Source of the DNA: Thermococcus eurythermalis | GTDB lineage: Archaea; Methanobacteriota_B; Thermococci; Thermococcales; Thermococcaceae | Reading direction: 5' to 3' | Length of the DNA: 64,000 nucleotides | Assembly: GCF_000769655.1 (NCBI RefSeq) | Contig: NZ_CP008887.1 | Span: 620,001 to 684,000 of the forward strand | In this document: piece after piece, positions 40,835 through 59,994 of the stretch | How positions within the stretch are numbered: the first letter of the stretch is position 1 | Layout of the letters: every line of letters begins with the position of its first letter | Translations under genes and position numbers: made by a program | The notes under the pieces: model-generated | The model's input: the letters and a program-made list of their open reading frames with translations, nothing else | The model's database searches: none | Told to the model about the DNA's origin: nothing

Positions 40835-41920
40835 ATGGTCAGGGAGACGCCTTACTTTTCATACGCTGTGAGAGAGCTCCCCAAAGGCTGTCAGCTCTGC
40901 GTTAGAGGTGAGAAGCTCGTCCTCTTCACAACTGGAGCCTGCCCGAGGAACTGCTTTTACTGCCCGCTGAGCCCCTGGAGGCGTGGCGATGTCGTGTATG
41001 CCAACGAGAGGCCAGTCAAGAAAATTGACGACGTCATTGAGGAGACCATGATTCAAGAGGCCAGGGGAGTGGGCGTTACTGGCGGAGACCCGCTTGCTAG
41101 GCTCGACAGGACGGTTGAGTACATCCGGGTCCTCAAGGAGACTTTTGGAGAGGACTTCCACGTCCACCTCTACACCACCGGCGCCCTCGCCACGAAGAAG
41201 AACCTTGAGAAGCTCTACGATGCCGGCCTCGACGAGATACGCTTTCACCCTGACCTCTTCAATCCCAACTCGAAGCTCTTCAAGGTCGAGATTGAGAACA
41301 TAAAAAATGCCTTCGACTTCGACTGGGACATCGGCGGCGAGATTCCCTCGATTCCGGGGCAGTTCGAGAAGATGAAGTGGTACGCGGAGTTCCTTGACAG
41401 TCTCGGCGCGAAGTTCCTCAACGTGAACGAGCTTGAGTTCAGCGAGGTCACCCTTAAGACGATGCTCGACATGGGCTACCAGCCGGTAAGCGACGAGAGT
41501 TCCGCCATAAAGGGCTCCCTTGAGCTCGGCCTCAAGCTCCTCGAATGGGGCGAGGAGAACACCTCGCTGAGCTACCACCTCTGCACCGCCAAGCTCAAGG
41601 ACGCCGTCCAGCTCAGGAACAGGCTCAGGAGAATGGCGAAGAACGTGGCTAAACCTTACATGGAGGTAACGGAGGACGGGACGCTCCGCTTTGGCATCGC
41701 TGAATACGACGACCTCGACGAGCTCTACCGGTTCCTCGTGGAAGAAGCGGAGGTTCCTGAGGAGTGGCTCTACATCAACCGCGAGAAGGGCAGGATTGAG
41801 ATGCCGGAAGAAGTGGCAGTCGAGCTGGCGGAGGCAATCGAGGGCGACGTGAAGTTCTTCATCGTTGAGGAGTACCCCACGTGGGACAGGCTTGAGGTCG
41901 AGAGGATTCCTCTGCCGTAA
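40835..41920 (+). CDS. Radical SAM protein
   Basis: A 361-residue protein with the cluster motif [10 protein letters not shown] (CxxxCxxC, about 35-44), an extra CxxC-like QLCV before it (about 20-23), and GGDPLA (about 83-88) for SAM binding. The C-terminal ~120 residues are a separate domain unrelated to known accessory modules I can name. Orthologs occur across Thermococcales without assigned substrate. GAGGTGAGTCG precedes the ATG. Divergent from rnp2, with TATA-like TTTTTAAGC between them. Confidence 0.82.
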
Positions 41921-41941: not shown

Positions 41942-44900
41942 TCATATCGAAACTGCGACCGCCTGGGGCACGACGCCCTGGGGCTGGAACGCAGTCATGA
42001 ACTGCACGAAGACGTGGCTGTAGGCCCAGTCAGGGTCGCTGGTTCCCCTGTGGAGCGGCGAGACTTCTCCCTCAGGCCCTGGGTGGTCGCGGTCCACGCT
42101 CCAGAAGGCGAGGGACCTCAGTCCGTGCTGAACTGCCCACTCAACGAGCTGCTGGGCGTCGCTGAGCGTGAACACGCTCTTGTCGTCGTTGGTTCCGATC
42201 ATCGGGGTCAGTCCTATCATTCCCCATATTTCCCTGTCCGTTTTGTTCGGGTATATCTGTTTGAGCTGTCTGAATGTGTTTTCCGCGACCTTTATCGCGT
42301 TCTCGGCGTTGGCCGGCGTCCAGTAGTAGTCCATGGTCATCGGGTTGACCCTGTCAACCTCGACGCCGTTCTTGGCGAGGCTCTCTATGAGCCCGTATCC
42401 CCTTGCGACTCCTATTCCTGGGTCCGCGGGCAGTGTAAGGCTGAACTTGACCCAGGGCCTCTCCCTCTGCACTATCTTGAGGGCCTCAATGAACACGTTT
42501 TCATTGACACCGCTCTCGATGTCAAAGTCGAGGTACGTTGCGTTGTACATGTCTATTACTTGAATGTACCACTGGGCCAGCTGTTCGGCGCTCTGGGCCT
42601 GCTGGCAGAGGTAGGGCCCAACCGCACCGCCGAACGCTATTATGACATCGCCCCCGGCCTCCCTCAGCTCCTTGACCTCCTCAACGAAGGCATCGAGCGG
42701 GAGCTTTCCGCCCCAGCTGGGCCCGTTGAATGCCTGGCTGTAGATGACGAAGGCCAGGGTGAAGTACGGCGTCCCGGTGAGGTTGTAGTAGTCCACAAGG
42801 GGCCTGTGGACGCCCAGCGTCACGTCAATGTACGGGGCAAAGAAGTGCTCCGGAAGGCCCGGGCCGGCTGGGACGTAGGTTGTGTTGTCGGGGATTGTTT
42901 CGGTCTGGTTCTGGGAGGGTGTCTGGTCGCTCTGGTTCTGGTCAGGTTGGGATATTGAGCTCCCCTCTGGCCAGATGTCCCAGATTTCCCCGTTGATTTC
43001 GAGCACCATCTGCTCCACGGGTTTGCTTCCCGTTGCTATGAAACCGAAGGTGGCCGTTGGCCCGCGGTTCCAGCTCATTGGGGTGAACACGATGTACCCG
43101 TCCTGTTCGGCCTTGTTGGTGCTCCAGTGGGAGCTTATAGATGAGCCCTCTCTGAGCTTCACTTTCAGCGTCCAGTCGTAGGTTCCCCCGAGGTCGAGTG
43201 TGACATCGTACTCGGTGTTGCCCCAGTCGTTGAGTGTAACCTTAATTGCCCCCGGTCTCACAAGCGTGACGTTGCCGGCGGGGTTCTGGTCTCCGCTTGA
43301 GTCGGTGCCGTTGTCTGTGTTGTCAGGTTGCTCGGTGTCGGTCTGGTTGTTGTCTGGGGTGCCCTCGTTTGAAGTGTCCGGCCGTGGAATCGGGCCGAGT
43401 TCTGGTGTGAAGTCCAGGGCCGGGAGGCCGCTCTGGTCTGTGTACTGGTTGAATATCCTGCTGAACTCGTAGTCCTCAATGTCGGGCAGTCCTGAGTGGC
43501 GCGGGGAAACACCGCCGCTTCCCGGGTGGTCTCTGGTCATTGACCACATCGAGAGCATTCCAACGCCGGTTGAGTTTGCCCAGTCCATGAGCTTCCAGGC
43601 GTCGCTCGGGTAGAACACCTCGCTTGTTATATCGTTCACTCCTATCATTGGGGTAATGGAGAGCATCTGCCAGATTTCAGCGTCGCTCTTGTTGGGGAAC
43701 AGCTCCTTAAGCTGGTTGAACGTGCTCTTGGCTGCCTGAATCGCGTACTCGCCCATCTTTCCATCGGGGTTGGGTGCCGCCCAGTCGCCGTAGTCCATCG
43801 CCATGATGTCAACGCGGTCGATTCTGACGCCGTTCTCGATGAGGTTCTTCAGGAAGTCTATGCCTGCCTGGGTCAGGCCGCTGGGCAGAACAGGAAGGGT
43901 GAAGCTGACCTTTAGGTTCGGGTACTTCTTCTGAATCATTGCGAGGGCCTTTGCGCGCTTGTCGTTGTCTTCCATCTTCTGGAGGTACGCCCCCTCCACG
44001 TCAAAGGTGAGCCACGTGGCGTTGTACGTTGTTATGACTTCTTCTATGGCCGAAGCCAGGTCCTCCGGGGAGGAGCACTTCTCTGCCAGGTACGGCCCGT
44101 TAGCGCCTCCGAAGGCTATGAGGACGTCTCCACCCATGCTCCTGACCCTGTTTATCTCCTCGAGGTAAAACTTGTCTGAAACCTTGTAGGCCCCGGCCCA
44201 CGCGGGCTCGCAGGCCCCGCTGGTGGACGCCACGATAAACGCCAGGTTGAAGAACCTGACGCCCGTTTTCTTCATCATCTCGCTTATTGATGGGGTCGGG
44301 TAGAGCGTTATGTCGACGTAGGGTGAGAAGACCTTTGCCGGCCACTGAACCTTCGCCGGGAGTGCAACGTCTCCCGGTACCGTGTTGTCGTTTGAAGAGT
44401 CCCCTGAAGACCCGTTGAGTCCGCCGAATTCCGGAGGCACAGGTGTCCCTTCGGGCCACACGTCCCACACGGCCCCGTTTACCACGAGAACCGCGATCAT
44501 CTCTGGGTTGCCGCCGGTGTAGGTGAACCCAAAGGTTGCAGTTGGCCCGCGGTTCCAGCTCGGGGGCGTGAAGACAATCCAGCTTCCGTTTTCCGCTTTA
44601 TTGGCGCTCCAGTGGCTGGCCAGGCTCGCGCCTTCGAGCTTTACGTAGAGCTTCCAGTCGTACTCGCCTCCGAGGTTTAGGGTTATGTCGTATTCACCGC
44701 CGGTGCCCCACGAGGTGTGCTTTACGGCTATCGCACCCGGTTTTACCGGCTCTATGGTCTGGTTTGAAGTGTCTCCGGTGTCAGTTGAGTTGTCCGGGCT
44801 CTCTTCTGGCTGGCCGCTGTCGTTACCGCCGGCCCCGTTGTCCGGCTGTCCTGTGTCGGTCTGGTTTCCGTCTCCGGTGTTGGGCTCTTCAGAATCCGTG

Positions 44901-46630
44901 CTGTTGTCATAGCTCGGTTCCGGGATGGTCAGGTTTGCCGGGACGCTTGCACCGAGGTAGTAGGTGTCGGGAATCCACGCCGGCGGCTTTTCTCCGAGGT
45001 GCTCCAGAACGGTGTCAAGGAGCGGGTGGTCGTTGGTGCCCGGCTTTCTATCCGCGGTTATCTCCCATACCATGACGCCTCCGATTCCGTTCTTGAGCAT
45101 GTAGTCTACCTTTATGCCTATGGCCCTCGGGTCGTCAAATGTTATGAATATCTTCTTCGTCGGTGAGTACAGCCATGCGACCATTGCCACGGGGTCCCAG
45201 TAGTAGTTGTACTCCGAGCTCTTGTTTTTCTCGGCCACGTCCCAGTAGTCCATCACGCCGTAGGTTTCCCAGGCTGGCCCCCACGTTCCGTCGGGGGTTC
45301 CGCTGAAGGGCTGGTACAGGCCGTTGTTGGTGGGCGGAACGTTGGCAAAGCTCCTGCTGTAGAACGGCAGGCCGAGAACGATTTTGGTCTTGTCAGGGAC
45401 GTGCTTGATGTACCACTGAATGGAAGCGTTCACGTTGAAGTTCCATTTTATGTTCGGGTTGGTGTACGGGGCGTTTGGGTCGGCGTAGAGCGGCGCGAGG
45501 TGGCCGGTGATGCTGTCCCATGCGCCGTGGTAGTCGTATGTCATCACGTTTATGAAGTCGAGGTACTTGGTGGCTTCGGCCCAGTCTATCCTTCCTGCCT
45601 TGACTGGGTCTGCCGGGACTGCCGCGGTGAGGAGGTACTCCTTGCGGTCCTCAAGCTCCGCCCTGTCGAACACCTCTCTGACGGTCTTGAGGAGGAGGAC
45701 GAAGTTTTTACCGTCGTCCGGGCGCACGTGGTTTCCTTCCATTCCGCCCCCGCCCGGGTACTCCCAGTCAATGTCGAGGCCGTCGAGGTTGTACTTTCTG
45801 ATGTATTCAAGGGCGCTCTCCGCGAACCTCTGCCTCTTGGCTGGGTCTGCCGCTATGTCCGAGAAGTACTTGCTCAGGGTCCAGCCGCCGACGCTGATGA
45901 GCACCTTGACCTGCGGATACTTTTTCTTGTACTCCTTCAGGTCTTCCAGGTTGAGCTCGTCGCCGTAGCTGTCGAAGAAGCTTATGCTCCCGTCCTCGTT
46001 CGGCTTCAGGAAGGCATAGTTCACGTGGGTGACCTTCTCCCAGGGGATATCGCTGACGTAGAACTTCCTCGCGTACCTGCCCCAGGAGATGTAGTAGACC
46101 ACGACCCTGTACGGCTGGGCGGGCGTCGTTACGGTCAGGACGTTTGAGGGACTGCCTCTCGAGCCGTCTGCCAGAACCGGAACCACGGCGTAGTAGTAGG
46201 TCGTGTTGGCCTTGAGGTTCCACTGATCGAGGTAGTTGGTCGTCGGGACGGCGTCTCCAAGAAGGGTCCATGCATCGCCTCCGGGGACGCTCTGCGTCCA
46301 GTACTTTGCCCGCCATATTTTGCCGTTGTACTCAACGATGTCACCCTGATTGTAGACCTTTCCAGGTTCGTACTGGGGGTAACTGCTCCAGTTAACCGTC
46401 GCTACGAGGTTGCTGGGGCTCAGGATTGCGTTTGGGTCTGTTGAGCGATAGACCTCATAGGCCTTTGTCCCCTCGTAGGGGCTCCATGTCAGGTTCACGA
46501 TGTCCCAGGCGATGGCCTGGCCCCTCAGTTCTACGGTCGTTGCTCCAGAAACCCAGGGGTAGTACACCTGCGGTGCCAGGGAGAGCACCAGCAGGGCTAC
46601 GAGTAGCAGGGTTGCCTTTCCACTTTTCAT
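41942..46630 (-). CDS. chiA: Secreted chitinase with three GH18 domains
   Basis: A 1562-residue extracellular enzyme; ATG 46630 follows GAGGTG. After a signal peptide (about 1-30) come an Fn3-like region interrupted by a CBM5/12-type chitin-binding piece (YPQYEPGKVYNQGDIVEY, about 84-125), GH18-A (about 170-555, catalytic Glu290 in DGLDIDWEYP), a Thr/Asp/Gly linker, a CBM2 (about 630-735), GH18-B (about 765-1070, Glu879 in LTFDVEGA), a linker, a second CBM2 (about 1125-1230) and GH18-C (about 1265-1560, LDFDIESG). The T. kodakarensis chitinase has two GH18 domains (exo and endo); here the B module and its CBM2 appear duplicated. The products, mainly diacetylchitobiose, feed the downstream import and deacetylation genes. 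Confidence 0.93.
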   Translation of the reverse strand: MKSGKATLLLVALLVLSLAPQVYYPWVSGATTVELRGQAIAWDIVNLTWSPYEGTKAYEVYRSTDPNAILSPSNLVATVNWSSYPQYEPGKVYNQGDIVEYNGKIWRAKYWTQSVPGGDAWTLLGDAVPTTNYLDQWNLKANTTYYYAVVPVLADGSRGSPSNVLTVTTPAQPYRVVVYYISWGRYARKFYVSDIPWEKVTHVNYAFLKPNEDGSISFFDSYGDELNLEDLKEYKKKYPQVKVLISVGGWTLSKYFSDIAADPAKRQRFAESALEYIRKYNLDGLDIDWEYPGGGGMEGNHVRPDDGKNFVLLLKTVREVFDRAELEDRKEYLLTAAVPADPVKAGRIDWAEATKYLDFINVMTYDYHGAWDSITGHLAPLYADPNAPYTNPNIKWNFNVNASIQWYIKHVPDKTKIVLGLPFYSRSFANVPPTNNGLYQPFSGTPDGTWGPAWETYGVMDYWDVAEKNKSSEYNYYWDPVAMVAWLYSPTKKIFITFDDPRAIGIKVDYMLKNGIGGVMVWEITADRKPGTNDHPLLDTVLEHLGEKPPAWIPDTYYLGASVPANLTIPEPSYDNSTDSEEPNTGDGNQTDTGQPDNGAGGNDSGQPEESPDNSTDTGDTSNQTIEPVKPGAIAVKHTSWGTGGEYDITLNLGGEYDWKLYVKLEGASLASHWSANKAENGSWIVFTPPSWNRGPTATFGFTYTGGNPEMIAVLVVNGAVWDVWPEGTPVPPEFGGLNGSSGDSSNDNTVPGDVALPAKVQWPAKVFSPYVDITLYPTPSISEMMKKTGVRFFNLAFIVASTSGACEPAWAGAYKVSDKFYLEEINRVRSMGGDVLIAFGGANGPYLAEKCSSPEDLASAIEEVITTYNATWLTFDVEGAYLQKMEDNDKRAKALAMIQKKYPNLKVSFTLPVLPSGLTQAGIDFLKNLIENGVRIDRVDIMAMDYGDWAAPNPDGKMGEYAIQAAKSTFNQLKELFPNKSDAEIWQMLSITPMIGVNDITSEVFYPSDAWKLMDWANSTGVGMLSMWSMTRDHPGSGGVSPRHSGLPDIEDYEFSRIFNQYTDQSGLPALDFTPELGPIPRPDTSNEGTPDNNQTDTEQPDNTDNGTDSSGDQNPAGNVTLVRPGAIKVTLNDWGNTEYDVTLDLGGTYDWTLKVKLREGSSISSHWSTNKAEQDGYIVFTPMSWNRGPTATFGFIATGSKPVEQMVLEINGEIWDIWPEGSSISQPDQNQSDQTPSQNQTETIPDNTTYVPAGPGLPEHFFAPYIDVTLGVHRPLVDYYNLTGTPYFTLAFVIYSQAFNGPSWGGKLPLDAFVEEVKELREAGGDVIIAFGGAVGPYLCQQAQSAEQLAQWYIQVIDMYNATYLDFDIESGVNENVFIEALKIVQRERPWVKFSLTLPADPGIGVARGYGLIESLAKNGVEVDRVNPMTMDYYWTPANAENAIKVAENTFRQLKQIYPNKTDREIWGMIGLTPMIGTNDDKSVFTLSDAQQLVEWAVQHGLRSLAFWSVDRDHPGPEGEVSPLHRGTSDPDWAYSHVFVQFMTAFQPQGVVPQAVAVSI

Positions 46631-46675
46631 GTCGCGACACCTCAAGGGTTGTCGCATTGGATATGCTCCAATTAT

Positions 46676-46698
46676 TTATAACTTTTTCCAATTTTATA
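46676..46698 (-). promoter_or_regulatory. chiA promoter with chitin-locus operator motif
   Basis: On the minus strand TATAAAATTG, then GAAAAAG, then TTATAA. The same frame of words in the same 24-base length stands upstream of dac (46795) and of the transporter operon (49906). It overlaps the TATA region of chiA. Confidence 0.6.
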
Positions 46699-46794
46699 TT
46701 TATGCCATTTTTGTAATTTTGGAACATCGTGGTCAGTGCCCCCATAATGTTGGCCATGTCGTCACACAGGCTGGGTAGAAACTAACCAAAAACA

Positions 46795-46818
46795 TTATAA
46801 AATTGACAATTTTTATAA
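46795..46818 (+). promoter_or_regulatory. dac promoter with chitin-locus operator motif
   Basis: TTATAAAATTG and CAATTTTTATAA form a near-perfect 24-base palindrome. It differs from the 49906 copy at only two positions. Confidence 0.65.
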
Positions 46819-46834
46819 AACGGCGGTGGTTGAG

Positions 46835-47638
46835 TTGGCCTTCGAGGAGTTTGATGACTTTGAATCCGCCCTGAAAGCGCTTATAGACAAGCTGGATTTT
46901 GACCTGGAGAACCCGCTCAATGACGTGGACAAGGTTCTCTGCATTGAGCCCCACCCTGATGACTGCGTCATCGGCATGGGGGGCACGATAAGGAAGCTGA
47001 CTGAGATGGGGAAGGAAGTCGTCTACCTCTGCCTCACCGACGGCTCAATGGGAACCACCGATGAAAGTGTTAGCGCCCACGAGCTGGCATTAACCCGCAG
47101 GCGGGAGGAGGAAGAGAGTGCAAAAATGCTCGGCGTGAACAGGATTATCTGGCTCGGCTACAAAGATACGGAGCTCCCCTACACCGTTGAGGCGAGGAAC
47201 CAGATAATCAAGGTCATAAGACGCGAGAAGCCTGACGCCGTTCTCGCCCCCGACCCCTGGTTGCCGTATGAGGCCCACCCCGACCACGTAACCGCCGGCA
47301 GGCTCGCCCTTGAGGCAGTTTCGTTCTCCCCGTTGCCAAACGTCGTTCCGAGCGACCTCCAGCTGGGCATAGAGCCCCACCAGGTTGATGTCCTCGGCTT
47401 CTACTACACCGCGAAGCCCAACTACTTCGTTGATATAACCGACCTTATGAAGCTGAAGCTGAGGGCGGTCAGGGCCCACCGGAGCCAGTTCACCGACGAT
47501 GTCTGGGAGAAGTGGGAGCCGTTCCTCAGGACTGTGGCGCTGTATTATGGAAAAAAGGTCGGGACAAAGTACGCCGAAGGCCTGCGCTTTATCCCCGGGC
47601 TGTTCCTGCACATAACTCCCTTTGCGGAGCTCATTTGA
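46835..47638 (+). CDS. dac: Diacetylchitobiose deacetylase (PIG-L/LmbE family)
   Basis: A 267-residue zinc-dependent deacetylase. The metal motif [13 protein letters not shown] (about 39-51) has the HPDD signature, and AHPDHVTAG (about 149-157) supplies the later His. It removes the acetyl group from the non-reducing sugar of imported diacetylchitobiose, after which GlmA can act. The start is TTG 46835 behind GGTGGTTGAG; a GTG at 46826 would lie in the ribosome site. It is divergent from chiA. Confidence 0.92.
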
Positions 47639-48080
47639 GCTCCTTCTTCACTATCCTTTCGAGCTCGCCGAGGAACTTCTCCAGGGGCATCGTGTCGAGG
47701 CCGAACTGCCTTATGGGCTCGTAGCGCTTGGGGTTGTCCGTTACGAGGAGGCTGTTGGTGCATATTGCCGTTGAGGCCGTCAGTATGTCCTCAAGGTCGA
47801 GCATGATGCCCCTCTGGAGGAGCTGGCCCTCTATCTGGGCCCCCTTGGTTATTATCCTGTCGTCGAGAGGGATTATGTTGTAGATGTCCTTGAGGACTTC
47901 CAGCTCCTTCTCGACGTTCCTCTTGAGGTAGGCCTTGGCCGAGAGGTAGCGGTAGACTGTTATTATCGAGAGGGAGACGTTGAACTTGGCGAGCGTTATT
48001 TCTAGCTGTCTCTTTCTCTTCGCTGTGTGCATTTTGAGGAGCGTTATGCTGTCGAAGGTTATGTCGGGAGGCAGCGGCAT
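47631..48080 (-). CDS. vapC: VapC-like PIN-domain toxin
   Basis: A 149-residue PIN-domain ribonuclease-like protein. Acidic residues in [11 protein letters not shown] (about 7-17), [10 protein letters not shown] (about 103-112) and VTDNPKRY (about 120-127) fit the PIN active site. The adjacent VapB gene ends three bases upstream. It lies inside the chitin cluster, between dac and the glycosidase, overlapping dac by 8 bases. ATG 48080 follows GGGGAG; a TTG at 48086 is in frame. Confidence 0.8.
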
Positions 48081-48082
48081 GG

Positions 48083-48292
48083 TCAACTCCCCTTCTTCTT
48101 TTCGAGTATGTTAATCAGAGTTTCTGCCTCTTCCTCATCAACGATTACGTTGTCCACCTTCTTGTCGAGCTCGACGAGGTGCCACGTCTCTATGAGCTTC
48201 TGAAGAACCTCGTCGTAGGAGCGGGCATCGAGCTTGTCCTTGAGCATCTTAATCTTCTTCCACGTCTTCTCATCAACCGCTATCGTCTTCAT
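48083..48292 (-). CDS. vapB: VapB-like antitoxin
   Basis: A 69-residue protein. The N-terminal [20 protein letters not shown] ... [13 protein letters not shown] has the strand-helix-helix form of RHH antitoxins; the acidic C-terminal part ([13 protein letters not shown]) would bind the PIN toxin. It overlaps the glycosidase stop by 4 bases, so the toxin-antitoxin pair is co-transcribed with that gene. Confidence 0.8.
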
Positions 48293-49743
48293 TCCAATCC
48301 CTCCTTTACAACCTTGCGGTACGTTTCAACGCTGTTCCTCCTTGGTATGCGCTCCTTTGTTATCATGTCCACTTCGTAGAGGCCGAAGCGGATTTTGAAC
48401 CCCATGGCCCATTCGTAGTTGTCGGTCAGCGCCCAGTGGAAGTAGCCCCTAACGTCTATTCCGTTCTCGACGAGCCTCCTGACTTCCTCCACGTGCTCAA
48501 CTATGTACCTTGGGCGGAGTATGTCCTTTGAGTCTGCCACGCCGTTCTCGGTGATGTAAACCGGCTTCCCGTACTCTGCGCCCTCCACGGTGGAGTCGTA
48601 TAACCCTTTCGGATAGACCTCCCAGCCGAAGTCACTAGTCGGATTGTTGTCCGGGGAGACGCCGTTCGGGTTCCCGGAGTAGCCGTAGCCCTCAACCCCA
48701 ACGAAGGTCACCATCGGGAGCTCCTTGAAGCGCGGCTCAACCCACTTGACGACCTCTCTCGTGTAGTAGTTGTTGCCTATCCAGTCGTTTCTTTCCAGGT
48801 GGGGGATTTTTACCGGGTTCCAGTCAAGCTCCAGGTCAACCCTACCCCGGTTCAGGGCCTCCAGGAAGAGCCTGTTGTGGAAGTAGTCGTAGTTCTCGGC
48901 GGCTTTGACGTCCCTGGCGTCGCTGGGGTTTAGTGGGTAGGCTGGGATTATGTTGAGTATTATCCCAACTGGCGCTTTTGTGTGCTCCTTTATCGCGTCA
49001 TACGCCCTCGCGTGCGCCACCATCTGGTTGATTACAACGCGCTTCGCTGCTTCGGGGTTTAGGATTCCCGGCGGCCAGCCGACGTACGGGGCCAGATAGC
49101 CGAGCTCGACGGTCACCATGGGCTCATCGAAGGTCGCCCAGAAATCGACCAGCTCGCCGAACTTCCAGGCCGAATAGGCCGAGAACTTTACGAACTCGAT
49201 TATGCTGTCCTCGTCCACCCAGCCCCTCGCCCTGCTCCCCTCGAAGTCGCTCCTCGTCCAGAGGGGGTCGTGAACCCAGATGGGCAGCGTCTGGTGGTTC
49301 AGGGTCACAAAGGTCGTGAAACCGAGCTTTTTGAGGTTCCTGAGAACCGCCAGGTAGTGGAGGATCTCCCTCCTGTTTGCGAGCCGGTCAAGTTCTTCAA
49401 GGGCTCCCTTTGTAACCTTCACGCACTTTATCAGGCCGTAGGAGTCCCTCTCGACTTTAACCTCTACCGAGCGCGTGGGGCAGGGAAATACCCTGCTCCA
49501 CTCAATTGTGAGCTGGTAAGCGTTCAGTCCGAGGCCTTTAGCCAGGCGGTGGTCTATCTCGTAGAGCTCGTAGTTGTTTATCCCGTCTTCGGGCAGGTCT
49601 CCGCTCACGAGGTCGTTTTTGATGTTAAACGGGTCTCTGACCCAGTGCCACCAGTCGCTCCGGGAGTCTATATTCCTTCTTAGGGGATCTCCCATCTCGA
49701 ACTGAAAAGCCGACTGCACGACACCCCAGAGGAAGTTGGACAT
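48289..49743 (-). CDS. GH1 beta-glycosidase
   Basis: A 484-residue cytosolic GH1 enzyme. The acid/base Glu is in WATFDEPMV (about 205-213) and the nucleophile Glu in PVYITENGVAD (about 405-415). The position in the chitin cluster matches the T. kodakarensis layout. Substrate may be beta-glucosides or chitobiose-like sugars; not certain. It starts at ATG 49743 behind GGTGAAAGG, with TATA-like CTATAAAAG about 50 bases up. Confidence 0.88.
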   Translation of the reverse strand: MSNFLWGVVQSAFQFEMGDPLRRNIDSRSDWWHWVRDPFNIKNDLVSGDLPEDGINNYELYEIDHRLAKGLGLNAYQLTIEWSRVFPCPTRSVEVKVERDSYGLIKCVKVTKGALEELDRLANRREILHYLAVLRNLKKLGFTTFVTLNHQTLPIWVHDPLWTRSDFEGSRARGWVDEDSIIEFVKFSAYSAWKFGELVDFWATFDEPMVTVELGYLAPYVGWPPGILNPEAAKRVVINQMVAHARAYDAIKEHTKAPVGIILNIIPAYPLNPSDARDVKAAENYDYFHNRLFLEALNRGRVDLELDWNPVKIPHLERNDWIGNNYYTREVVKWVEPRFKELPMVTFVGVEGYGYSGNPNGVSPDNNPTSDFGWEVYPKGLYDSTVEGAEYGKPVYITENGVADSKDILRPRYIVEHVEEVRRLVENGIDVRGYFHWALTDNYEWAMGFKIRFGLYEVDMITKERIPRRNSVETYRKVVKEGLE

Positions 49744-49905
49744 ATCCTTTCACCGCTTTTTGTTTTATAACTTTGTAATTATTTGTGGTTCTTATGGCTT
49801 TTATAGTTTTTGAGTGTGGCGGGGCACATTTCTGTAATTTGCGCACAGTTTATGCATTGAGGGACATAAACGTCCGCCAAAAGCTTTATATAGAATCCCA
49901 AAATG

Positions 49906-49929
49906 TTATAAAATTGACATTGTTTATAA
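49906..49929 (+). promoter_or_regulatory. Transporter-operon promoter with chitin-locus operator motif
   Basis: TTATAAAATTGACATTG followed by TTTATAA, 24 bases, nearly identical to the dac copy. It lies about 20 bases after BRE/TATA AAGCTTTATATAG (49881-49893), covering the expected transcription start; this fits a repressor site. Confidence 0.65.
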
Positions 49930-49943: not shown

Positions 49944-51809
49944 ATGAAAACTGCAAAACGGTATCTGGCCATGGCCGTTGTGGCCGTGATGCTCGGTAGC
50001 GTTTTTGGTTTTGCTCCAGTCAGCGCTGCTTCGATGTATCCAAGGAGTGAGACGCTGTACACTGCCAACAGTGCTCCTCCGACAAACGCAAACCCGTTCC
50101 AAGGCGGCAATATCATCGGTCTCGATGGCCTCATATTCGAGCCCCTCGCGATGCTGAACTTCATGACCGGCGAACTTAAACCCTGGCTCGCCGAAAGCTG
50201 GGATTGGGTGGAACCAAACGTTTTCCAGGTCAAGCTCCGCTCAGGGCTCAGATGGCAGGACGGTGAGCCCCTCACCGCTGAGGACGTTAAGTTCTCCTAC
50301 GAGTACTACCAGGAGATTGGGCTGAGGGACTGGACTGCCCTCGGCCTGGAGGAGATAAAAGTTGTGGATGACAGGACAGTCGAGTTCGTGTTTGACGGCA
50401 CCCCTAACTACCAGCTCTGGCAGCTTCAGCTCTTCTACGGCTGGGGGCAGGGTGCCCTCATAATTCCGAAGCACATCTTCAAGGACGTTGACCCCAAGCA
50501 GATACCCAAGATGACGTTTCTCGGTGACGAGAAGAAGTACCTTGTCGGTTCTGGCCCTTACAAGCTTGATGAGGTCGTGGAGCAGCAGAAGGCGATTCTC
50601 GTCAGGAACGACGACTGGTGGGGCAACGACGTCTTCGGCAAACCGGCTCCGAAATACATCATCCAGCTCTACGTTAAGGACAACTCCCAGGCCGCGAACA
50701 TGTTCATCAAGGGAGACCTCGACGTTGGAACCTACTACATTGACATCGTCCAGGCAAAGAAGCAGAACCCGAACCTCGCCAGCTGGCTTGAGGAGCCTCC
50801 GTACTTCCCGCCGGTTGCCCCGGTTCTGCTCTACTTCAACACCAAGAAGCCTCCAATGGACAACCCGCAGTTCAGGAAGGCCATAGCCATGGCCATAAAC
50901 CCAGACCAGATTGTTAAGAACGGTCCCATCGGCGGAAAGCCCGCGGAGATACCCTTTGGAACCGGTCTCCTCCAGAAGTGGGCCGACAAGATAGACCTCG
51001 ACGGCCTCGTTGAGAAGTACGGCTGGAATTACGGGGACATCGCCGAGGCCAACAGGATACTCGACGAGCTTGGAATGAAGAAGGACTCGAACGGCTGGAG
51101 AACCTACAACGGCAAAGAAATCGAGCTCCACCTCGTCACCTGTGCCGGCTGTTCTGACTGGATTTCGGCCGCGGAGATAATCCAGAACCAGCTCAGGGCC
51201 CTTGGAATCAAAGTCGTCATAGACAAGTACGACTGGGGTGCAATGATGGACAGGTACCACAACGGCGAGTTCGACCTCGGTCTCCACTGGTCCGGAACCT
51301 TCCAGCCGACCGCCTACGCTGTCTACAACGCCCTTCTCAGCGAGGGGGGTGTTGCGAACTTCGGAAACTACACAAACTCCGAGGCCCAGGGTGTGCTTGA
51401 CGAGTTCTCTAAGACCACCGATCCAAACAAGGAGGCAGAATACGTAAAGAAGCTCAGCGAAATCTGGCTCAAAGACGTTCCCGCCGTCCCGGTTTACATG
51501 GCCACCCTGTTCTACGAGGCCAACACCAAGTACTGGACCAACTGGCCCAACGAGAAGAACCCCTACGGCGTCCCGATATTCTGGGCCAAGTATGGAACCT
51601 GGGGAACCGCCCTGGCGCTTCTGGGAGTTAAGCCGGCCGGCGAGGCTCCAGCAACGACCACGGAGTCTCATACAACTTCACCCTCGCAGTCCCAGGAGAC
51701 CACGAGCACGCCCTCCAGCTCGACCAATGAAGAGGGTGGAGGAATCTGCGGCCCGGCCCTCATTGTGGGCCTTGCAGTCGTCCCGCTCCTGTTGAGACGC
51801 AGAAGGTGA
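49944..51809 (+). CDS. Chito-oligosaccharide (DppA-type) binding protein with CGP-CTERM
   Basis: A 621-residue extracellular solute-binding protein of family 5. The signal peptide is at about 1-30 (ending PVSAAS). The binding domain opens SMYPRSETLYTANSAPPTN and carries the family pattern near 80-100 (NVFQVKLRSGLRWQDGEPLT). A Ser/Thr linker and GGGICGPALIVGLAVVPLLL plus RRRR form a CGP-CTERM anchor. Family 5 proteins usually bind peptides; in this cluster the ligand is probably diacetylchitobiose or related sugars. It is the first gene of the rightward operon. Confidence 0.88.
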   Translation: MKTAKRYLAMAVVAVMLGSVFGFAPVSAASMYPRSETLYTANSAPPTNANPFQGGNIIGLDGLIFEPLAMLNFMTGELKPWLAESWDWVEPNVFQVKLRSGLRWQDGEPLTAEDVKFSYEYYQEIGLRDWTALGLEEIKVVDDRTVEFVFDGTPNYQLWQLQLFYGWGQGALIIPKHIFKDVDPKQIPKMTFLGDEKKYLVGSGPYKLDEVVEQQKAILVRNDDWWGNDVFGKPAPKYIIQLYVKDNSQAANMFIKGDLDVGTYYIDIVQAKKQNPNLASWLEEPPYFPPVAPVLLYFNTKKPPMDNPQFRKAIAMAINPDQIVKNGPIGGKPAEIPFGTGLLQKWADKIDLDGLVEKYGWNYGDIAEANRILDELGMKKDSNGWRTYNGKEIELHLVTCAGCSDWISAAEIIQNQLRALGIKVVIDKYDWGAMMDRYHNGEFDLGLHWSGTFQPTAYAVYNALLSEGGVANFGNYTNSEAQGVLDEFSKTTDPNKEAEYVKKLSEIWLKDVPAVPVYMATLFYEANTKYWTNWPNEKNPYGVPIFWAKYGTWGTALALLGVKPAGEAPATTTESHTTSPSQSQETTSTPSSSTNEEGGGICGPALIVGLAVVPLLLRRRR

Positions 51810-51859
51810 TGTCTCCTTTCCTTTTCCTTATCTATACAACAAACGCGGTGGGGGTAACA

Positions 51860-52843
51860 ATGGGGTTCAAGAAATACCTCGCACGAAAGGTCTTTGTGTA
51901 TGTGATAACCCTCGTGTTTGCCGTGACTCTCAACTGGCTCCTCCCAAGGCTTATGCCGGGAAACCCAATCGAGGCGATGATGTCGCGGAGCGGTAGCGCC
52001 GCGGGCCCTCAGCTCGTGAAGTTCTACGAAGAGCTCTACGGCTTAAACCAGCCGCTCTGGAAGCAGTTCATAAACTTCTGGTCCAACCTCTTCCACGGGG
52101 ATTTGGGGTACAGTATGCTGTACAACGCCCCAGTTTCGAGTATAATCGGGCACGCCCTCCCCTATGATATAATCGTCCTCCTGCCTGCAATCGTTCTGAG
52201 CTGGCTTGTTGGAAACTGGCTCGGTGCAATCGCGGGTAAAAACAAGAAGTATGACAGGTACACGATGCCGGTCTTTTACTTCCTCGCGAGTATGCCCTAC
52301 TTCTGGTTCGCGATGATTCTCGTCTACGTTATAGGTGTTAAACTCGGCTGGCTCCCGTATTCTGGCGCCTACGCGCCCGACATGGTTCCAAGCTTCTCGT
52401 GGGCGTTCATCAAGAGCTTCCTCAGCCACTGGATTCTGCCCTTCCTGAGCCTTTTCATAGTCATGATAGGCAGCTGGGCGATAGGAATGCGCAACATGAT
52501 AATCTACGAGCTTGAAGCCGACTACGTCCGCTACCTTGAGGCCCTTGGCGCGAGCGAGAAGCTGATGACCAAGCACGCCTACAGGAACGCTATTCTGCCC
52601 CAGGTCACGGGTCTGGCCTTACAGCTCGGAATGATGGTTGCTGGGGCTATTGCGACGGAGATAGTCTTCAACTACCCGGGAATAGGAGTGCTCATAATGA
52701 ACGCCGCCCTCAACCAGGACTACTTCCTCCTCCAGGGAGCGTTCCTGATCGTCGTCATCTCAGTCCTCGCGGCCAACTTCCTGATTGACATAATTTACGC
52801 CTTCATAGACCCGCGCGTCAGGGCCAGCTACACGGAGGGTTGA
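51860..52843 (+). CDS. ABC permease, DppB type
   Basis: A 327-residue permease starting MGFKKYLARKVFVYVITLVF, with six spans and an EAA-like loop (VRYLEALGASEKLMTKHAYRN, about 225-245; quoted only in part as YLEALGASEKLMTKHAYRN). ATG 51860 follows GGTGGGGG; an ATG at 51806 in the same frame overlaps the previous stop and is less likely. Partner of the next gene. Confidence 0.88.
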   Translation: MGFKKYLARKVFVYVITLVFAVTLNWLLPRLMPGNPIEAMMSRSGSAAGPQLVKFYEELYGLNQPLWKQFINFWSNLFHGDLGYSMLYNAPVSSIIGHALPYDIIVLLPAIVLSWLVGNWLGAIAGKNKKYDRYTMPVFYFLASMPYFWFAMILVYVIGVKLGWLPYSGAYAPDMVPSFSWAFIKSFLSHWILPFLSLFIVMIGSWAIGMRNMIIYELEADYVRYLEALGASEKLMTKHAYRNAILPQVTGLALQLGMMVAGAIATEIVFNYPGIGVLIMNAALNQDYFLLQGAFLIVVISVLAANFLIDIIYAFIDPRVRASYTEG

Positions 52844-52845
52844 AT

Positions 52846-53778
52846 ATGCCCAGGAGGAAACGGTTCGAGGTCGTTAAAATCGCGTTCAGGAACAGAAAGT
52901 TCCAGTTTGGCTTTGGCCTCCTGATGTTTTTTGTAGTGTTCTCTCTCATAGGCCCGCTCCTCACTCCGTTCGCGTGGGACGGCCTCTACTATACAAAGGT
53001 CGAGGGCGTTAAAATAGCCTCCTACGGTGAGAAGACCCTCCCGCCGATGAGCAGGGAGGTCATAACGACGTACACGGGCAAGGAGGTCGAGGTTCTCCAT
53101 ATCCTTGGCACGAACATCAACGGCCAGGACCTCTACGCGAGGCTCGTCTACGGCCTGAGGACGAGCCTGTGGATAGCGTTCCTCGCGGCGGTTATAGGAA
53201 CGGCCCTTGGAATAACGATAGGCCTTTTCGCGGGCTACAAGGGTGGCTGGGTGGACGAGCTCCTGATGATGTTCACCAACATAATGCTCGTTATCCCCTC
53301 TATCGTGCTCCTCATCTTGGTCGCGGCATACCTGTCCGCAAGGACGCCGGAAGTCCAGGCGGTCATCATAGGCCTCACCGGCTGGCCCTGGGTCGCAAGG
53401 GCCGTTAGAAGTCAGACCCTCTCGCTCAAGAACAGGGAGTTCGTCCACCTATCAAAGCTTGCTGGACTCAGCGACCTGAAGATTGTCTTCACAGAGGTAA
53501 TGCCCAACATGATTTCCTATGTCTTCATGGCCGGAATCCTGCAGTTCAGCGGGGCAATCCTCGCGAGCGCCACCCTCGACTTCATAGGCCTGGGCCCGAC
53601 CACAATGGTCTCGCTCGGAAACATCCTCCAGAGGGCAATAGCCTACAACGCGCTCCAGTTTGGCTGGTGGTGGTGGTTCATTCCGCCGGGGCTGATAATC
53701 ACCCTCATCATCACGGCGTTGTTTTTCATCAACATCGGCCTTGAGGAAGTGTTCAACCCGCGCCTCAGGAGGGAGTAA
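52846..53778 (+). CDS. ABC permease, DppC type
   Basis: A 310-residue permease, MPRRKRFEVVKIAFRNRKF..., with six spans and the loop EFVHLSKLAGLSDLKIVFTE (about 196-215). About 60 extracellular residues lie between spans 1 and 2 (GLYYTKVEGVKIASYGEK...), as usual for DppC. ATG 52846 follows GGAGGG. Confidence 0.88.
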   Translation: MPRRKRFEVVKIAFRNRKFQFGFGLLMFFVVFSLIGPLLTPFAWDGLYYTKVEGVKIASYGEKTLPPMSREVITTYTGKEVEVLHILGTNINGQDLYARLVYGLRTSLWIAFLAAVIGTALGITIGLFAGYKGGWVDELLMMFTNIMLVIPSIVLLILVAAYLSARTPEVQAVIIGLTGWPWVARAVRSQTLSLKNREFVHLSKLAGLSDLKIVFTEVMPNMISYVFMAGILQFSGAILASATLDFIGLGPTTMVSLGNILQRAIAYNALQFGWWWWFIPPGLIITLIITALFFINIGLEEVFNPRLRRE

Positions 53779-53779
53779 A

Positions 53780-54748
53780 ATGGCAATGCTCAACGTTGAA
53801 GACCTCAGGGTGTACTACTCAACGCCCCTTGGACACGTTAAGGCCGTTGATGGCGTCTCATTCGAGGTGAGGGAGGGGGAGGTCTTTGGAATAGCCGGCG
53901 AGAGCGGCTGTGGGAAATCGACGCTCGTCCACTCCTTAATCCTCAGAAAGCCCCCGATGGTGCACATGGGCGGTAGGGCCCTGTTCAAGGGCAGGGATTT
54001 GATGACGATGGACGTTAGGGAGTCCCGGAAAATCCGCTACACCGAGCTCTCCATCATCCCCCAGTACGCCATGAACGCCCTCAACCCCACGAAGAAAATC
54101 AAGGACATCGTTTGGGACTTGGCGAGAGAACACGGCCGCACAGACCGCGAGGAGGTTGAGAAGCTCCTCCGTGAGAGGCTTGAGATGGTCAAGCTCTCCC
54201 CAAAGGTCGCCGAGATGTACCCCGTTGAGCTCAGCGGCGGCATGCGCCAGCGCGCGACAATGGTGGTCTCTACCCTGCTGAACCCCGACCTGCTCATCGC
54301 GGACGAGGTCACCTCTGCCTTAGACGTTACCACGCAGCGCGTCGTCATCGAGCTCCTCCACTACTTCATGGAAGAGGGAATCGTCAAGTCAATAATCTTC
54401 GTCACCCACGACTTAGCGTTGCTCGACAAGATAGCGGACAGGATAATGGTGATGTACGCCGGCAAGGTCGTCGAAATCGGCCCGACGGAAGAGGTCATCA
54501 ACGAACCGAGCCACCCCTACACCCAGCTCCTCCTCAACTCCCTGCCGAGAATGGGCGTGCAGTACAAAAAGCAGAAGCTCAAGGGAATTCCCGGCTACCC
54601 GATAAGCCTTCTCAACCCGCCGAAGGGCTGCCGCTTCTACACGCGCTGTCCCTACGCCCTCGACAAGTGCCCGCACGTCGAGCCTGGGCTCGCCAAAGTG
54701 AGTGAAGAGCACTACGCGGCCTGCCACCTTCTCGGGGGTGAGGACTGA
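53780..54748 (+). CDS. ABC transporter ATPase, DppD type
   Basis: A 322-residue ATPase. Walker A GESGCGKST (about 38-46), signature LSGGMRQRA (about 152-160), Walker B LLIADEVTSALD and switch His in VTHDLAL are complete. The C-terminal oligopeptide-transporter domain has a Cys cluster (CRFYTRCPYALDKC ... CH) that usually binds Fe-S. ATG 53780 follows GGAGGG. Confidence 0.9.
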   Translation: MAMLNVEDLRVYYSTPLGHVKAVDGVSFEVREGEVFGIAGESGCGKSTLVHSLILRKPPMVHMGGRALFKGRDLMTMDVRESRKIRYTELSIIPQYAMNALNPTKKIKDIVWDLAREHGRTDREEVEKLLRERLEMVKLSPKVAEMYPVELSGGMRQRATMVVSTLLNPDLLIADEVTSALDVTTQRVVIELLHYFMEEGIVKSIIFVTHDLALLDKIADRIMVMYAGKVVEIGPTEEVINEPSHPYTQLLLNSLPRMGVQYKKQKLKGIPGYPISLLNPPKGCRFYTRCPYALDKCPHVEPGLAKVSEEHYAACHLLGGED

Positions 54749-55713
54749 TGAGCGAGCTTCTGAGGGTTGAGCACCTCACGAAGACGTTCACCTCCGGCCT
54801 AATCGGGGGCTTTGAAATCAGGGCCGTTGATGATGTCAGCTTCACCATGAAGAAGGGGGAGATAGTTTCCCTCGTTGGAGAAAGCGGCAGCGGGAAGACG
54901 ACCATCGGAAAGCTCATCCTGCGCCTAATCCAGCCGACGGGCGGGAGGATACTCTTCGAGGGCAGGGACGTCCTCCAGATGAGCAAGAAGGAGCTCCGGC
55001 GGGACTACTACCGCCAGGTTCAGGCCGTCTTCCAGGACCCCTTTGCGAGCTTTAACCCCCTGTACCCGATAGACAGGTCCTTTGACCTTGTATTTGACTC
55101 GTACCTCCCTGACGTCAGCAGGGGCGAGAGGGACGAGGCAATCAACAAGGCCCTCGTCCAGGTCGGCCTCAACCCAGACCAGATTCGCGGAAAGTTCCCG
55201 CACCAGCTCAGCGGCGGCCAGCTCCAGAGAATCCTCATAGCGAGGGCCCTGCTGTTGAAGCCGAAGCTCCTCATAGCGGACGAGGCCGTCTCGATGCTCG
55301 ACGCAAGCACGAGAATTGACATTCTCAACCTTCTCGGCGACTTCAGGGACAGGTACGGGACTTCTATCCTCTTCGTCACCCACGATTTGGCCCTCGGCTA
55401 CTACATCAGCGACTCTACGATTATCATGTACCGCGGGACAGTGGTGGAGATGGGCGACACCGAGAAGGTCTTCTACAACCCGCTCCACCCGTACACGAAA
55501 ATGCTCCTTGAGAGCGTCCCGGATTTGAACGTCAAGTGGGAGTTCAAGGGCATAGAGCCGGAGAAGGAAGAGGAAACCGTGTATTCCCTCCAGGGGTGCC
55601 GCTACGCCCCCAGGTGCCCCAGAGCCAGGAAAACCTGTTTCAGGTCGCGCCCGGCCCTTCTTGAGGTTGAAAAAGATCACTGGGTTGCCTGTCATCTTTA
55701 CGGGGGTGAGTGA
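54748..55713 (+). CDS. ABC transporter ATPase, DppF type
   Basis: A 321-residue ATPase, the second nucleotide-binding subunit. Walker [10 protein letters not shown] (about 45-53), signature LSGGQLQRI (about 151-159), Walker [13 protein letters not shown], switch His VTHDLALG, and a C-terminal Cys cluster ([14 protein letters not shown] ... CH). Its ATG overlaps the stop of the DppD gene (TGATG). Confidence 0.9.
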
Positions 55714-55714
55714 G

Positions 55715-56695
55715 GTGCACTCGACGATTAAGGAGATTAGAAAGACTCCTGAGGGAATAATGAAGGCCCAGAAAGCGTTTGAGGACTTCGTGGCCAATCA
55801 CGACTTCCGGTTACCGAGAGAGATAGTGTATACAGGTTGCGGCAGTTCCCACTTCCTGTCGCAGCCGCTGGCCATGGCAACCACCCGCCTCGGGGGCAGG
55901 GGGTTCAGCGCCCCCTGCTCCGAACTTCTCTATTCACGCGAGTGGTACAGCATTGGGAGCCCCGAGCTCCTCGTTGCGATATCCCGCTCGGGGGAGACGA
56001 CCGAGGCCGTTGAGGCCCTTAGGGTTCTTGATGTCCCCAAGTTCGCACTGACGGCCTACGAGAGCACCCTTTCAAGGGAGGCAGACTACGCCCTTGTCGT
56101 CCCGGCCCACGAGGAGAGCGTCGTCATGACTCACTCGTTCCCGGCCTTTTACTTCGCTTACCTCCAGCTACTGCTCCACTCCTACGGGGGGGAGACCCTC
56201 GACGCCGGTCACGTTGCAACCCTTACAGAAGAGGTTCTCGGGAACGAGGGCTACGTAAGGGAGCTGGTTGAGGGCTTCGATTTCAGAAACGTTATCTTTC
56301 TCGGCTCCGGGATACTCTACCCGATAGCCCTTGAGGCCATGCTGAAGATGAAGGAGATGGCCCTCTTCTGGAGCGAGGCGTACCCGACGTTCGAGGTCAG
56401 GCACGGATTCAAGTCAATCGCCGACGACGGAACCCTCGTTGTTCTCCTTGTAACGGAGCCCTTTGACTGGCACGAGAAGCTCACTAGGGAGTTCCAGAAC
56501 CAGGGGGCGAAGGTTTTCACCGTCGGAAGGCGCGACACCGGGGCGGACTACTTCATCGAAGTCCCCGAACTGGACGAGCTTGCAAGTCCCGTCATCTACC
56601 TGCCGATAATTCAGCTCCTCGCCTACTACAAGGCCGTATCGCGCGGTTTGAATCCGGACAATCCAAGGTTTCTCAGCAAGGTGGTCAAGTGGTGA
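55715..56695 (+). CDS. glmD: GlmD-type glucosamine-6-phosphate deaminase (SIS domain)
   Basis: A 326-residue protein with two SIS (sugar isomerase) domains: [15 protein letters not shown] (about 40-54) and [13 protein letters not shown] (about 91-103), then [20 protein letters not shown] (about 197-216). In T. kodakarensis the equivalent enzyme deaminates glucosamine-6-phosphate to fructose-6-phosphate, linking chitin to glycolysis. Start is GTG 55715, after GGGGGTGAGTGAG; the frame open to 55661 lies within the ATPase gene. Confidence 0.88.
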
Positions 56696-56700
56696 TGGTG

Positions 56701-59046
56701 ATGAAGGTTGGCTACGATGGTAAGACTTACATACTGGACGGGGAGCGCTTCCTCATCTACGGGGGGACGCTCCAGTTCTTCAGGGTGCCGAGGGAGAGCT
56801 GGCGAGACAGACTGGAAAAAATGAAGAGGCGCAACCTCAATACCGTGGACACCTATGTCGCCTGGAACTGGCACGAGCCGGAAGAGGGGAGCTTCGACTT
56901 CACGGGCGAGACGCACCCCCAGAGAGACCTTGTGGGGTTCCTTGAGCTGGCGGACAAAGTTGGCCTTAAGGTCATCATAAGGCCCGGCCCGTACATCTGC
57001 GGCGAGTGGAGGAACGGCGGAATCCCGGACTGGCTTATCCAGAAACACCCGGAGATACTCGCCAGGGGCCCCAACGGCCCGCTTCCTGGAGACATCTACT
57101 ACCCGCCGATTACCTATCTCCACCCGACCTACCTGGAGGCAGTCTCGAAGTGGTATGACGCTGTCCTCCCAATAATCAGGGAGTACCTCTACACCAACGG
57201 CGGACCGATAATAAGCGTGTCAATAGACGATGAGCCGTCCTACTGGGAGACAATCTTTCAGCCCTTCCTGACGGACTACAACGAGGTCATAATAAGACCC
57301 GGCGGCCTATGGGAGAGGTGGCTGAGGGACAACTACACCCTTGACGAGCTGAGCGAGCGCTACGGGACGCCCGTGGGGGACTACTCGGAAGTCCGCGCCC
57401 CCGCGAGCGAAGACGAGCCCCTGCCGAAGATACTCGACTGGCACCACTTCAAGATATGGATGACCAACCGCTACGTGGAAACCCTTTACGACCACCTCAG
57501 GCGCTACGTGGACGTCCCAATAAGCATACTCGACCCGTACCTGCTCCTCGCGGCGTGGAGGCACTTCTACCGCTATGTAACTGAGAGGGGCCTCAGCGTC
57601 CACCTGTGGACTGAGTTCTGGTACTCATTCTACCGCTCCTTCGACCTCAAGGAGGACAGGCTCGGCCACATCTACTACAAAACTGGAATCTACCGCTTCT
57701 ACCAGAAGAGGCTCGGAACGCCGCCGCTGAGTATAGAGACCCAGGCTTCGCTCGCCCACACCATCGAGCCGGACGAGGCCGAGCACCTCTACTCGCTGAT
57801 AGCCGCCCTTGGAATCCACAACATCAACTACTACCTCTACGTCGGCGGTGAGAATCCCAAAGGCTACGAGTCCCACAACGGGGTGACGTGGGACGTTTAT
57901 TCGCCCCTCAGCCTTGACGGGGACGAGCGCCCTCACGTGGAGCCAATAGAGTGGCTCGGCGAGTTCCTGCTCAACAACCCCGGCTTTGCCGGCTCAGAGC
58001 TCCGGCCTAAGGTCGCCTTCGGTACCTACGAGCCGTACGAGGCTCTCTCAACCTTCGGACTCCGGGACGGTCTGACGGAGAGCGTGAACCTCAACGAGTA
58101 CCTTTTCGGCGAGCGCGGGCTCTTGACGCTCCTGGCAATGAGCAACGTCCCCTTTGACGTCCTAGACCTTGAAGAGGCAAGCGTGGAGGAGATGCTGGGC
58201 TACGGCCAGCTCTGGGTTTACTCCCTCGACTTCATGTCCCGTGAAGTCCAGGACAAGCTCGCTGAGTTCGTCGAGAGGGGCGGAAACCTCGTAATCCTGC
58301 CGATGCTTCCGTATCTCGACGAGAACATGAAGCCCTACTCGTCCCTGGCAGAGTTCCTGGGCGTCGAGGTTGAGAGGGTTGAGGCGAGGGACAACGTTAG
58401 GCTTATCCAGTTCACGAGCGTTGAGAGCGACGGAATAGACAGAATGCTCGTCAGGAACACGGTTCGGGAAGTCAGGGGAGGGGAGCCCTTCGTCTTCCAC
58501 TACGGGAAGCCCGCGGGAACGCTCGTTAGGAAGGGGAGGGGGAGTGCCATCGTCCTCGGCTTCAGGCTCCAGTACTACACAAGCTACCACGACCTGCACC
58601 GGAAGTTCGTTGACAGGCTTTTGGAGATGCAGGGGGTGGACAGAGACTTCAGCGTGACCGACAGGGACATGATAGCGATTCCGCGCGGCAACTACCTCGT
58701 CGTGCTCAACCCCCGCGGCCACAGGGTCTTCGGAAAGGTGAAGTATAGGGGAATCGAGGTTCCGAAGCTCCTAGACGGCATCGAGATGAGAAAGCGCGGG
58801 GCTCTCTTCATGCCCTTTGGCGTTAAGGTCGGGGGGGTTGAGGTCGTTTACTCGACTGCCACCCTGCTCGGCGGGGACAGCAGAACCCTCCGCTTCAGGA
58901 ACCACCTGAGCGGTGCAAGCGAAGTCGCGCTGAGGGGCGTTGAGGAAGTCAAGGCGATTGAGGGTAGAATCGTGGACGAGAGCTTTGAGAATGGGGTTCT
59001 CAGGGTTGCCGTTGAGCATGGGGACGAGTTTGAGCTCCTAATCTGA
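56701..59046 (+). CDS. glmA: GlmA, exo-beta-D-glucosaminidase
   Basis: A 781-residue cytosolic GH35-type enzyme that splits glucosamine units from the deacetylated chitobiose. The barrel contains NTVDTYVAWNWHEPEEG (about 47-63) and the active-site GGPIISVSIDDEPSYWE (about 172-188), where the usual NE pair of GH35 appears as DDE, as in the archaeal glucosaminidases. Later domains are beta-rich. ATG 56701 is preceded by GGTGATGGTG; the run of GTG/ATG codons makes the exact start uncertain by four codons. Last gene of the chitin operon. Confidence 0.9.
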   Translation: MKVGYDGKTYILDGERFLIYGGTLQFFRVPRESWRDRLEKMKRRNLNTVDTYVAWNWHEPEEGSFDFTGETHPQRDLVGFLELADKVGLKVIIRPGPYICGEWRNGGIPDWLIQKHPEILARGPNGPLPGDIYYPPITYLHPTYLEAVSKWYDAVLPIIREYLYTNGGPIISVSIDDEPSYWETIFQPFLTDYNEVIIRPGGLWERWLRDNYTLDELSERYGTPVGDYSEVRAPASEDEPLPKILDWHHFKIWMTNRYVETLYDHLRRYVDVPISILDPYLLLAAWRHFYRYVTERGLSVHLWTEFWYSFYRSFDLKEDRLGHIYYKTGIYRFYQKRLGTPPLSIETQASLAHTIEPDEAEHLYSLIAALGIHNINYYLYVGGENPKGYESHNGVTWDVYSPLSLDGDERPHVEPIEWLGEFLLNNPGFAGSELRPKVAFGTYEPYEALSTFGLRDGLTESVNLNEYLFGERGLLTLLAMSNVPFDVLDLEEASVEEMLGYGQLWVYSLDFMSREVQDKLAEFVERGGNLVILPMLPYLDENMKPYSSLAEFLGVEVERVEARDNVRLIQFTSVESDGIDRMLVRNTVREVRGGEPFVFHYGKPAGTLVRKGRGSAIVLGFRLQYYTSYHDLHRKFVDRLLEMQGVDRDFSVTDRDMIAIPRGNYLVVLNPRGHRVFGKVKYRGIEVPKLLDGIEMRKRGALFMPFGVKVGGVEVVYSTATLLGGDSRTLRFRNHLSGASEVALRGVEEVKAIEGRIVDESFENGVLRVAVEHGDEFELLI

Positions 59047-59957: not shown

Positions 59958-59994
59958 ATATTTCGTGTGTGCATGCACTTATAGGTGAGGGGAT

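Follow-up and report, generated by a model that had tools for sequence, protein, structure and literature searches.

A domesticated VapBC-like protein pair, encoded within the chitin cluster of Thermococcus eurythermalis, probably represses the chitin regulon and its own operon by bridging pairs of TTATAA hexamers that lie over TATA boxes and transcription start sites. The window analysed here is a stretch of 64,000 nucleotides (G000:C1:620001-684000) from a genome of 2.13 Mb, and all genome scans were pattern searches. The putative regulon, which is strongly supported at the sequence level, comprises chiA, dac and the operon of the oligosaccharide transporter with glmD and glmA; relatives add the GH1-vapB-pin operon. 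That chiA, dac and the transporter operon share an operator and form a chitin regulon had been proposed in the initial annotation; this proposal now draws strong support from the uniqueness of the motif in the genome, from its conservation in the orthologous promoters of some 25-30 species and from similar arrays before chitinase genes at other chromosomal positions.

The proposed operator in the chitin cluster

The word TATAAAATTG-N7-TTATAA, claimed for three promoters of the cluster, is present without mismatch at all of them: at 46676-46698 on the minus strand (chiA), and at 46796-46818 (dac) and 49907-49929 (transporter operon) on the plus strand. As had been stated, two positions distinguish the dac copy from the transporter copy. 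No match to the word, even with one mismatch, was found in 100 dinucleotide shuffles of the window. The genome-wide scan that had been proposed gave exactly three sites at zero to one mismatch, all in the cluster, and with two mismatches one further, unrelated site was obtained; the motif is thus not common at unrelated promoters. TTATAA-N(4-30)-TTATAA occurs at 11 places in the genome, and only the dac and transporter sites have the two hexamers in an 18-bp register.

The chiA operator, ATATAA-N12-TTATAA (ATATAAAATTGGAAAAAGTTATAA; 46676..46699, minus strand), has one mismatch to the hexamer pair and overlaps the probable BRE/TATA region of chiA, which encodes a multidomain GH18 chitinase (41942..46657, minus strand; probable start ATG at 46630). 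Orthologous chiA promoters carry ATGTAA-N12-TTATAA. The dac operator, TTATAA-N12-TTATAA (46795..46818, plus strand), precedes the gene of a PIG-L family diacetylchitobiose deacetylase (46826..47638, plus strand). Its left hexamer is the probable TATA box, and the dac mRNA is probably leaderless. The same TTATAA-N12-TTATAA arrangement stands at 49906..49929 (plus strand) before the transporter operon (49944..59046, plus strand), which encodes SBP_bac_5, two permeases, two ATPases, GlmD and GlmA. A separate BRE/TATA box of this operon (CCAAAAGCTTTATATA; 49878..49893, plus strand) contains the TATA sequence TTTATATA at 49886-49893. The usual distance from an archaeal TATA box to the start of transcription is -27, which would put the transporter start at approximately 49916-49917. 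The centre of the operator, 49917.5, falls on this predicted start, in line with the earlier statement that the motif spans it.

The motif overlaps the probable TATA boxes of dac and chiA in this genome and is rich in A+T, as would be expected if it were ordinary TATA-box or A+T-rich promoter sequence recurring by composition. That explanation is refuted by the genome scan and we regard it as exceedingly improbable: the 2.13 Mb contain exactly three sites, the 18-bp spacing is sharp, the shuffles give values near zero, and a TATA box distinct from the motif lies upstream of it at the transporter operon and in many dac orthologues.

To the three promoters described before, that of the GH1-vapB-pin operon can be added as the fourth of the cluster. 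In the window its putative operator is a diverged form, CTATAA-N12-CCACAA-N12-TTATAA (49765..49806, minus strand), in the 18-bp register. The operon starts with a GH1 glycosidase gene (48289..49743, minus strand), and its promoter carries the motif itself in relatives. At the borders of the cluster, a radical SAM gene (window positions 40835-41920, plus strand) adjoins chiA/dac in many relatives, even where the remaining chitin cluster has been lost. Two ORFs following glmA, 59143-59829 (plus strand) and 59926-60300 (minus strand), had no Pfam or NCBIfam match; ORFs beyond glmA, one of 228 aa, are patchily conserved beside glmA and are not conserved with the cluster.

Conservation of the paired hexamers in Thermococcaceae

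Stretches of at most 20 kb around dac orthologues, at 40 places in relatives, were compared after mapping of the cluster genes. Thermococcus and Pyrococcus share the gene order dac, pin, vapB, GH1, sbp, oppBCDF, glmD, glmA. Promoters with a TTATAA pair, allowing at most one mismatch, were counted for every spacing from 8 to 40 and compared with shuffles. The 18-bp pair forms a sharp maximum, with 24 of 27 sbp promoters, 27 of 30 dac promoters and 23 of 28 GH1 promoters (shuffles: 0.15, 0.25 and 0, respectively); these promoters are related by descent and are not independent trials, and what matters is that the spacers and flanking sequences have diverged around hexamers that keep their sequence and register. 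The three sbp promoters lacking the pair are cases in which the start was misplaced inside the gene by a partial alignment. Additional peaks, at 20 and 38 for sbp and at 36 for dac, are read by us as the TATA box and as twice 18, respectively.

In nearly all species the sbp promoters consist of a BRE/TATA block (CACCAAAAAGCTTATATAG, conserved in the orthologues), followed by TTATAAAATTGACAT..TTATAA and then a Shine-Dalgarno sequence, and the operator is the strongest conserved block among the aligned orthologous promoters. In the dac orthologues the spacer is free (e.g. TTATAAATCCAGCGATGTTTATAA) while the hexamers and the 18-bp register are kept, and the GH1-vapB-pin promoters that carry the pair have the form TTATAA-N12-(T/C)TATAA. 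The sharing of an operator by three promoters is strongly supported, whereas the 24-bp word as a whole is not the conserved unit. That unit is the two palindromic hexamers in the 18-bp register, TTATAA-N12-TTATAA, the intervening ATTG being dispensable at dac.

In genome G018, which has lost the cluster and kept dac, the dac site has decayed to TTGTGA..TATATA; G032 keeps TTATGA..TTATAA. The sbp promoter of one locus (L089, G069 C1) carries a tandem duplication of approximately 53 bp that repeats the operator, the ribosome-binding site and the first transporter codons.

Chitinase genes away from the cluster

In G024 and G021, chiA lies hundreds of kilobases (>240 kb) from the cluster and is preceded by TTATCA-N12-TTATAA-N12-TTGTAA. 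In G058 it is located on a separate contig, downstream of TTGTAT-N12-TTATAA-N12-TTATAT. The chiA promoter of G023, which we take to be T. kodakarensis, reads ATGTAA-N12-TTATAA-N12-ATGTAA. The presence of related 18-bp arrays at chitinase promoters distant from the cluster suggests that the regulon acts in trans. Not all chitinases belong to it, since chitinases of a second type (about 62-67 % identical) have no clear 18-bp pair upstream. Before an unlinked chiA of Pyrococcus (L216), the only pair has a spacing of 17 bp and lies approximately 300 bp ahead of the annotated ORF.

Exact 18-bp pairs outside the cluster in Pyrococcus were also considered as chitinase promoters and were rejected as such: two of them adjoin a cas1-like gene, with no chitin gene. 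These exact TTATAA-N12-TTATAA pairs (G005 C1:1634992 and G009 C1:802151) are conserved in the two Pyrococcus genomes and may belong to a CRISPR leader without relation to chitin.

The VapB-like and PIN proteins as candidate regulator

The regulator had been left unnamed in the initial annotation; the VapB-like/PIN pair of the cluster itself is now the leading candidate on sequence grounds. All intact clusters that were examined, from Thermococcus and from Pyrococcus alike, have the genes for a protein of 69 aa (48083..48292, minus strand, in the window) and a protein of 151 aa (47631..48086, minus strand) downstream of GH1, between dac and the transporter operon. The antitoxin-like gene directly precedes the PIN gene with an overlap of 4 bp, and this order is conserved. 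For T. kodakarensis, an operon TK1761-TK1762-TK1763 that diverges from TK1760 has been reported (PMC3691661).

The 69-aa protein is the proposed DNA-binding regulator. Among the aligned members of its family, VAPB_antitox of Pfam was found in 26 of 26 at E values up to 0.1 (best 4e-5) and RHH_1 in 12 of 26; for the protein of the window both matches are weak and under the curated cut-off. Its predicted structure (pLDDT 84) has an extended N-terminus and helices at residues 8-21 and 26-47. In a Foldseek search with this model, ribbon-helix-helix (RHH) DNA-binding proteins were at the top of the list, but with E > 0.4. Taken together, profile and model weakly suggest an RHH fold. All 26 aligned homologues, paralogues included, have the same N-terminal strand, MKTIAVDE. 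The N-terminal strand is the DNA-contacting element of RHH proteins, and an invariant strand would match an invariant hexamer.

The 151-aa protein, the proposed bridging or sensing partner, is a VapC-like PIN-domain protein. It matches the profile of PDB entry 1v96 (E 1e-66) and that of the VapC in 3zvk (E 7e-7), to which Foldseek aligns it with TM scores of 0.66-0.70. It is orthologous to PH0500 ("VapC4") of P. horikoshii (PDB 1v96, 1ye5, 5h4g, 5h4h) and to the P. furiosus protein of entry 1y82. PH0500 was deposited as a hypothetical protein or VapC4 toxin, and no regulatory role for it was found in the literature searched. Of the four acidic residues (D, E, D, D) of the PIN active site, the first and third are kept in the 28 aligned homologues and the fourth varies. 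The second, the catalytic Glu, is replaced by R, K, S, A, N, Q or P in 25 of the 28, and by Arg in the protein of the window. Because this second acid is mostly lost, the protein is unlikely to act as an RNase and more likely to serve in bridging or sensing.

The antitoxin-toxin gene order with its 4-bp overlap and the PIN fold with VapC relatives would also be expected of a standard, active VapBC toxin-antitoxin module that came to lie in the cluster by chance, the operator having spread to neighbouring genes by promoter duplication. We consider this quite unlikely in view of the missing catalytic Glu, the maintenance of the pair across genera at a metabolic locus, the stronger conservation of the VapB-like protein relative to its PIN partner and the operator-like sites at unlinked chiA genes.

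Proposed mechanism and relation to VapBC systems

We infer for the VapBC-like pair that the RHH protein binds DNA directly, that the PIN protein bridges its dimers, and that the resulting repression is released by an inducer. Each palindromic TTATAA would be bound by one dimer of the VapB-like protein, and the PIN protein would hold at least two such dimers at the right distance, as in VapBC and FitAB hetero-octamers. A palindromic hexamer fits one RHH dimer. Eighteen bp of B-DNA, the spacing between the proposed dimers, corresponds to approximately 61 Å, comparable to the spacing of approximately 60 Å between the RHH motifs in the VapBC11 hetero-octamer, which in turn is comparable to that in FitAB-DNA (PMC6265470). 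The bound complex would block TBP/TFB or RNA polymerase; repression is favoured because the sites lie over the probable TATA box at dac and chiA of this genome and over the predicted transcription start at the transporter operon. TrmB represses malE from a comparable operator position (PMC4158304). The complex would also control its own GH1-vapB-pin operon, and a chitin-derived signal would release it from the DNA. According to Tanaka and co-workers (in 2004), diacetylchitobiose reportedly induces dac and glmA in T. kodakarensis.

The proposed system resembles VapBC and FitAB in its adjacent RHH-like and PIN genes and in the paired palindromic sites at its own promoter in most relatives. Unlike these systems, it would have a metabolic regulon as its target, its PIN active site is degenerate here, one locus is conserved across genera, and the paralogous loci have arrays of up to seven sites. 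No regulator of archaeal chitin catabolism was found in the literature searched, nor was anything that links vapB/PIN to chitin, subscription journals being thinly covered; the novelty of this link is therefore provisional.

Paralogous GH1-vapB-pin loci and operator spacing

The candidate regulator is proposed on the grounds of co-occurrence, autoregulatory position, arrays at paralogous loci and geometry. Exact 18-bp pairs were present in 23 of 23 same-genus genomes with a chitin-type vapB and absent from 31 of 38 other genomes of the genus. Two of the seven exceptions, which have a pair and no chitin-type vapB, are incomplete genomes with an apparent sbp operator, as checked in G048 and, by the same sequence, assigned in G065. 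Within the chitin cluster by itself, co-occurrence cannot set vapB/pin apart from GH1 and the transporter, which co-occur too. The paralogous loci help to do so, though GH1, an enzyme, is common to them as well.

Further vapB homologues of the family are 54-68 % identical and belong mostly to GH1-vapB-pin operons; these are as a rule transcribed divergently from another Opp-type transporter (sbp 35-39 % identical). The intergenic regions of these loci contain arrays of three to seven TTATAA hexamers at 19-22 bp. The longest have six exact TTATAA in a row or, with one mismatch, seven (L150). In a scan of 94 genomes for triplets of exact hexamers with this kind of spacing, 23 of the 24 places found were in these intergenic regions; the reversed control pattern occurred in 3 of the 94 genomes. 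No array remains at a paralogous locus from which GH1 has been lost (L153). In three genomes (G029, G068 and G080) the two locus types coexist, the chitin locus with a spacing of 18 bp and the paralogous one with 19-22 bp.

A conventional winged-helix regulator encoded elsewhere, be it TrmB-like, Lrp-like or other, might read the operator instead, with VapB/PIN as a passenger within the regulon. Most known thermococcal sugar regulators are of the TrmB family (PMC4158304), and a TrmB gene is located 7 kb away (37985-39010). Like the system proposed here, TrmB and TrmBL1 (Tgr) control nearby genes for sugar ABC transporters and hydrolases through palindromic operators at BRE/TATA or +1 (PMC4158304). 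They differ in being winged-helix proteins with a sugar-binding domain and in their sites, TACTN3AGTA or TATCACN5GTGATA, which are unlike the motif and whose only matches, at 33546 and 30196, lie outside the chitin promoters. Since, moreover, the nearby TrmB is a maltose/trehalose equivalog and the TTATAA arrays accompany vapB/pin into paralogous loci, we hold this alternative to be unlikely.

With the VapB-like/PIN pair as regulator, a broader proposition, to which we would give an even chance, is that a class of archaeal metabolic regulators has arisen from VapBC modules. Its members would be RHH-PIN pairs in beta-glycoside uptake operons, in which a nuclease-dead PIN protein acts as a ruler, and possibly as a sugar sensor, that sets the array spacing (18 bp for chitin, 19-22 bp at the sister loci). 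Spacing would thus separate two paralogous systems that share one hexamer in the same cell. The pair provides a candidate regulator with a defined operator for archaeal chitin catabolism, which can be tested in the tractable T. kodakarensis (TK1762/TK1763). If the proposal is correct, a PIN protein present in the PDB for two decades as hypothetical or VapC4 would obtain a role, a toxin-antitoxin-like pair would have turned into a dedicated nutrient regulator, and operator spacing would be a possible specificity code.

One paralogous locus (L160, G080 C1:615278-629475) is a second GH1-vapB-pin/transporter cluster with its own glmD and glmA, which suggests that this genome has two amino-sugar systems that differ in operator spacing. 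In GH1-vapB-pin loci of a third type (L154, L156, L157 and L159), hexamers spaced by 18-20 bp precede another gene, the product of which has a CGP-CTERM-like end in two cases. The PIN proteins of three of these loci (L156, L157 and L159) keep the catalytic Glu.
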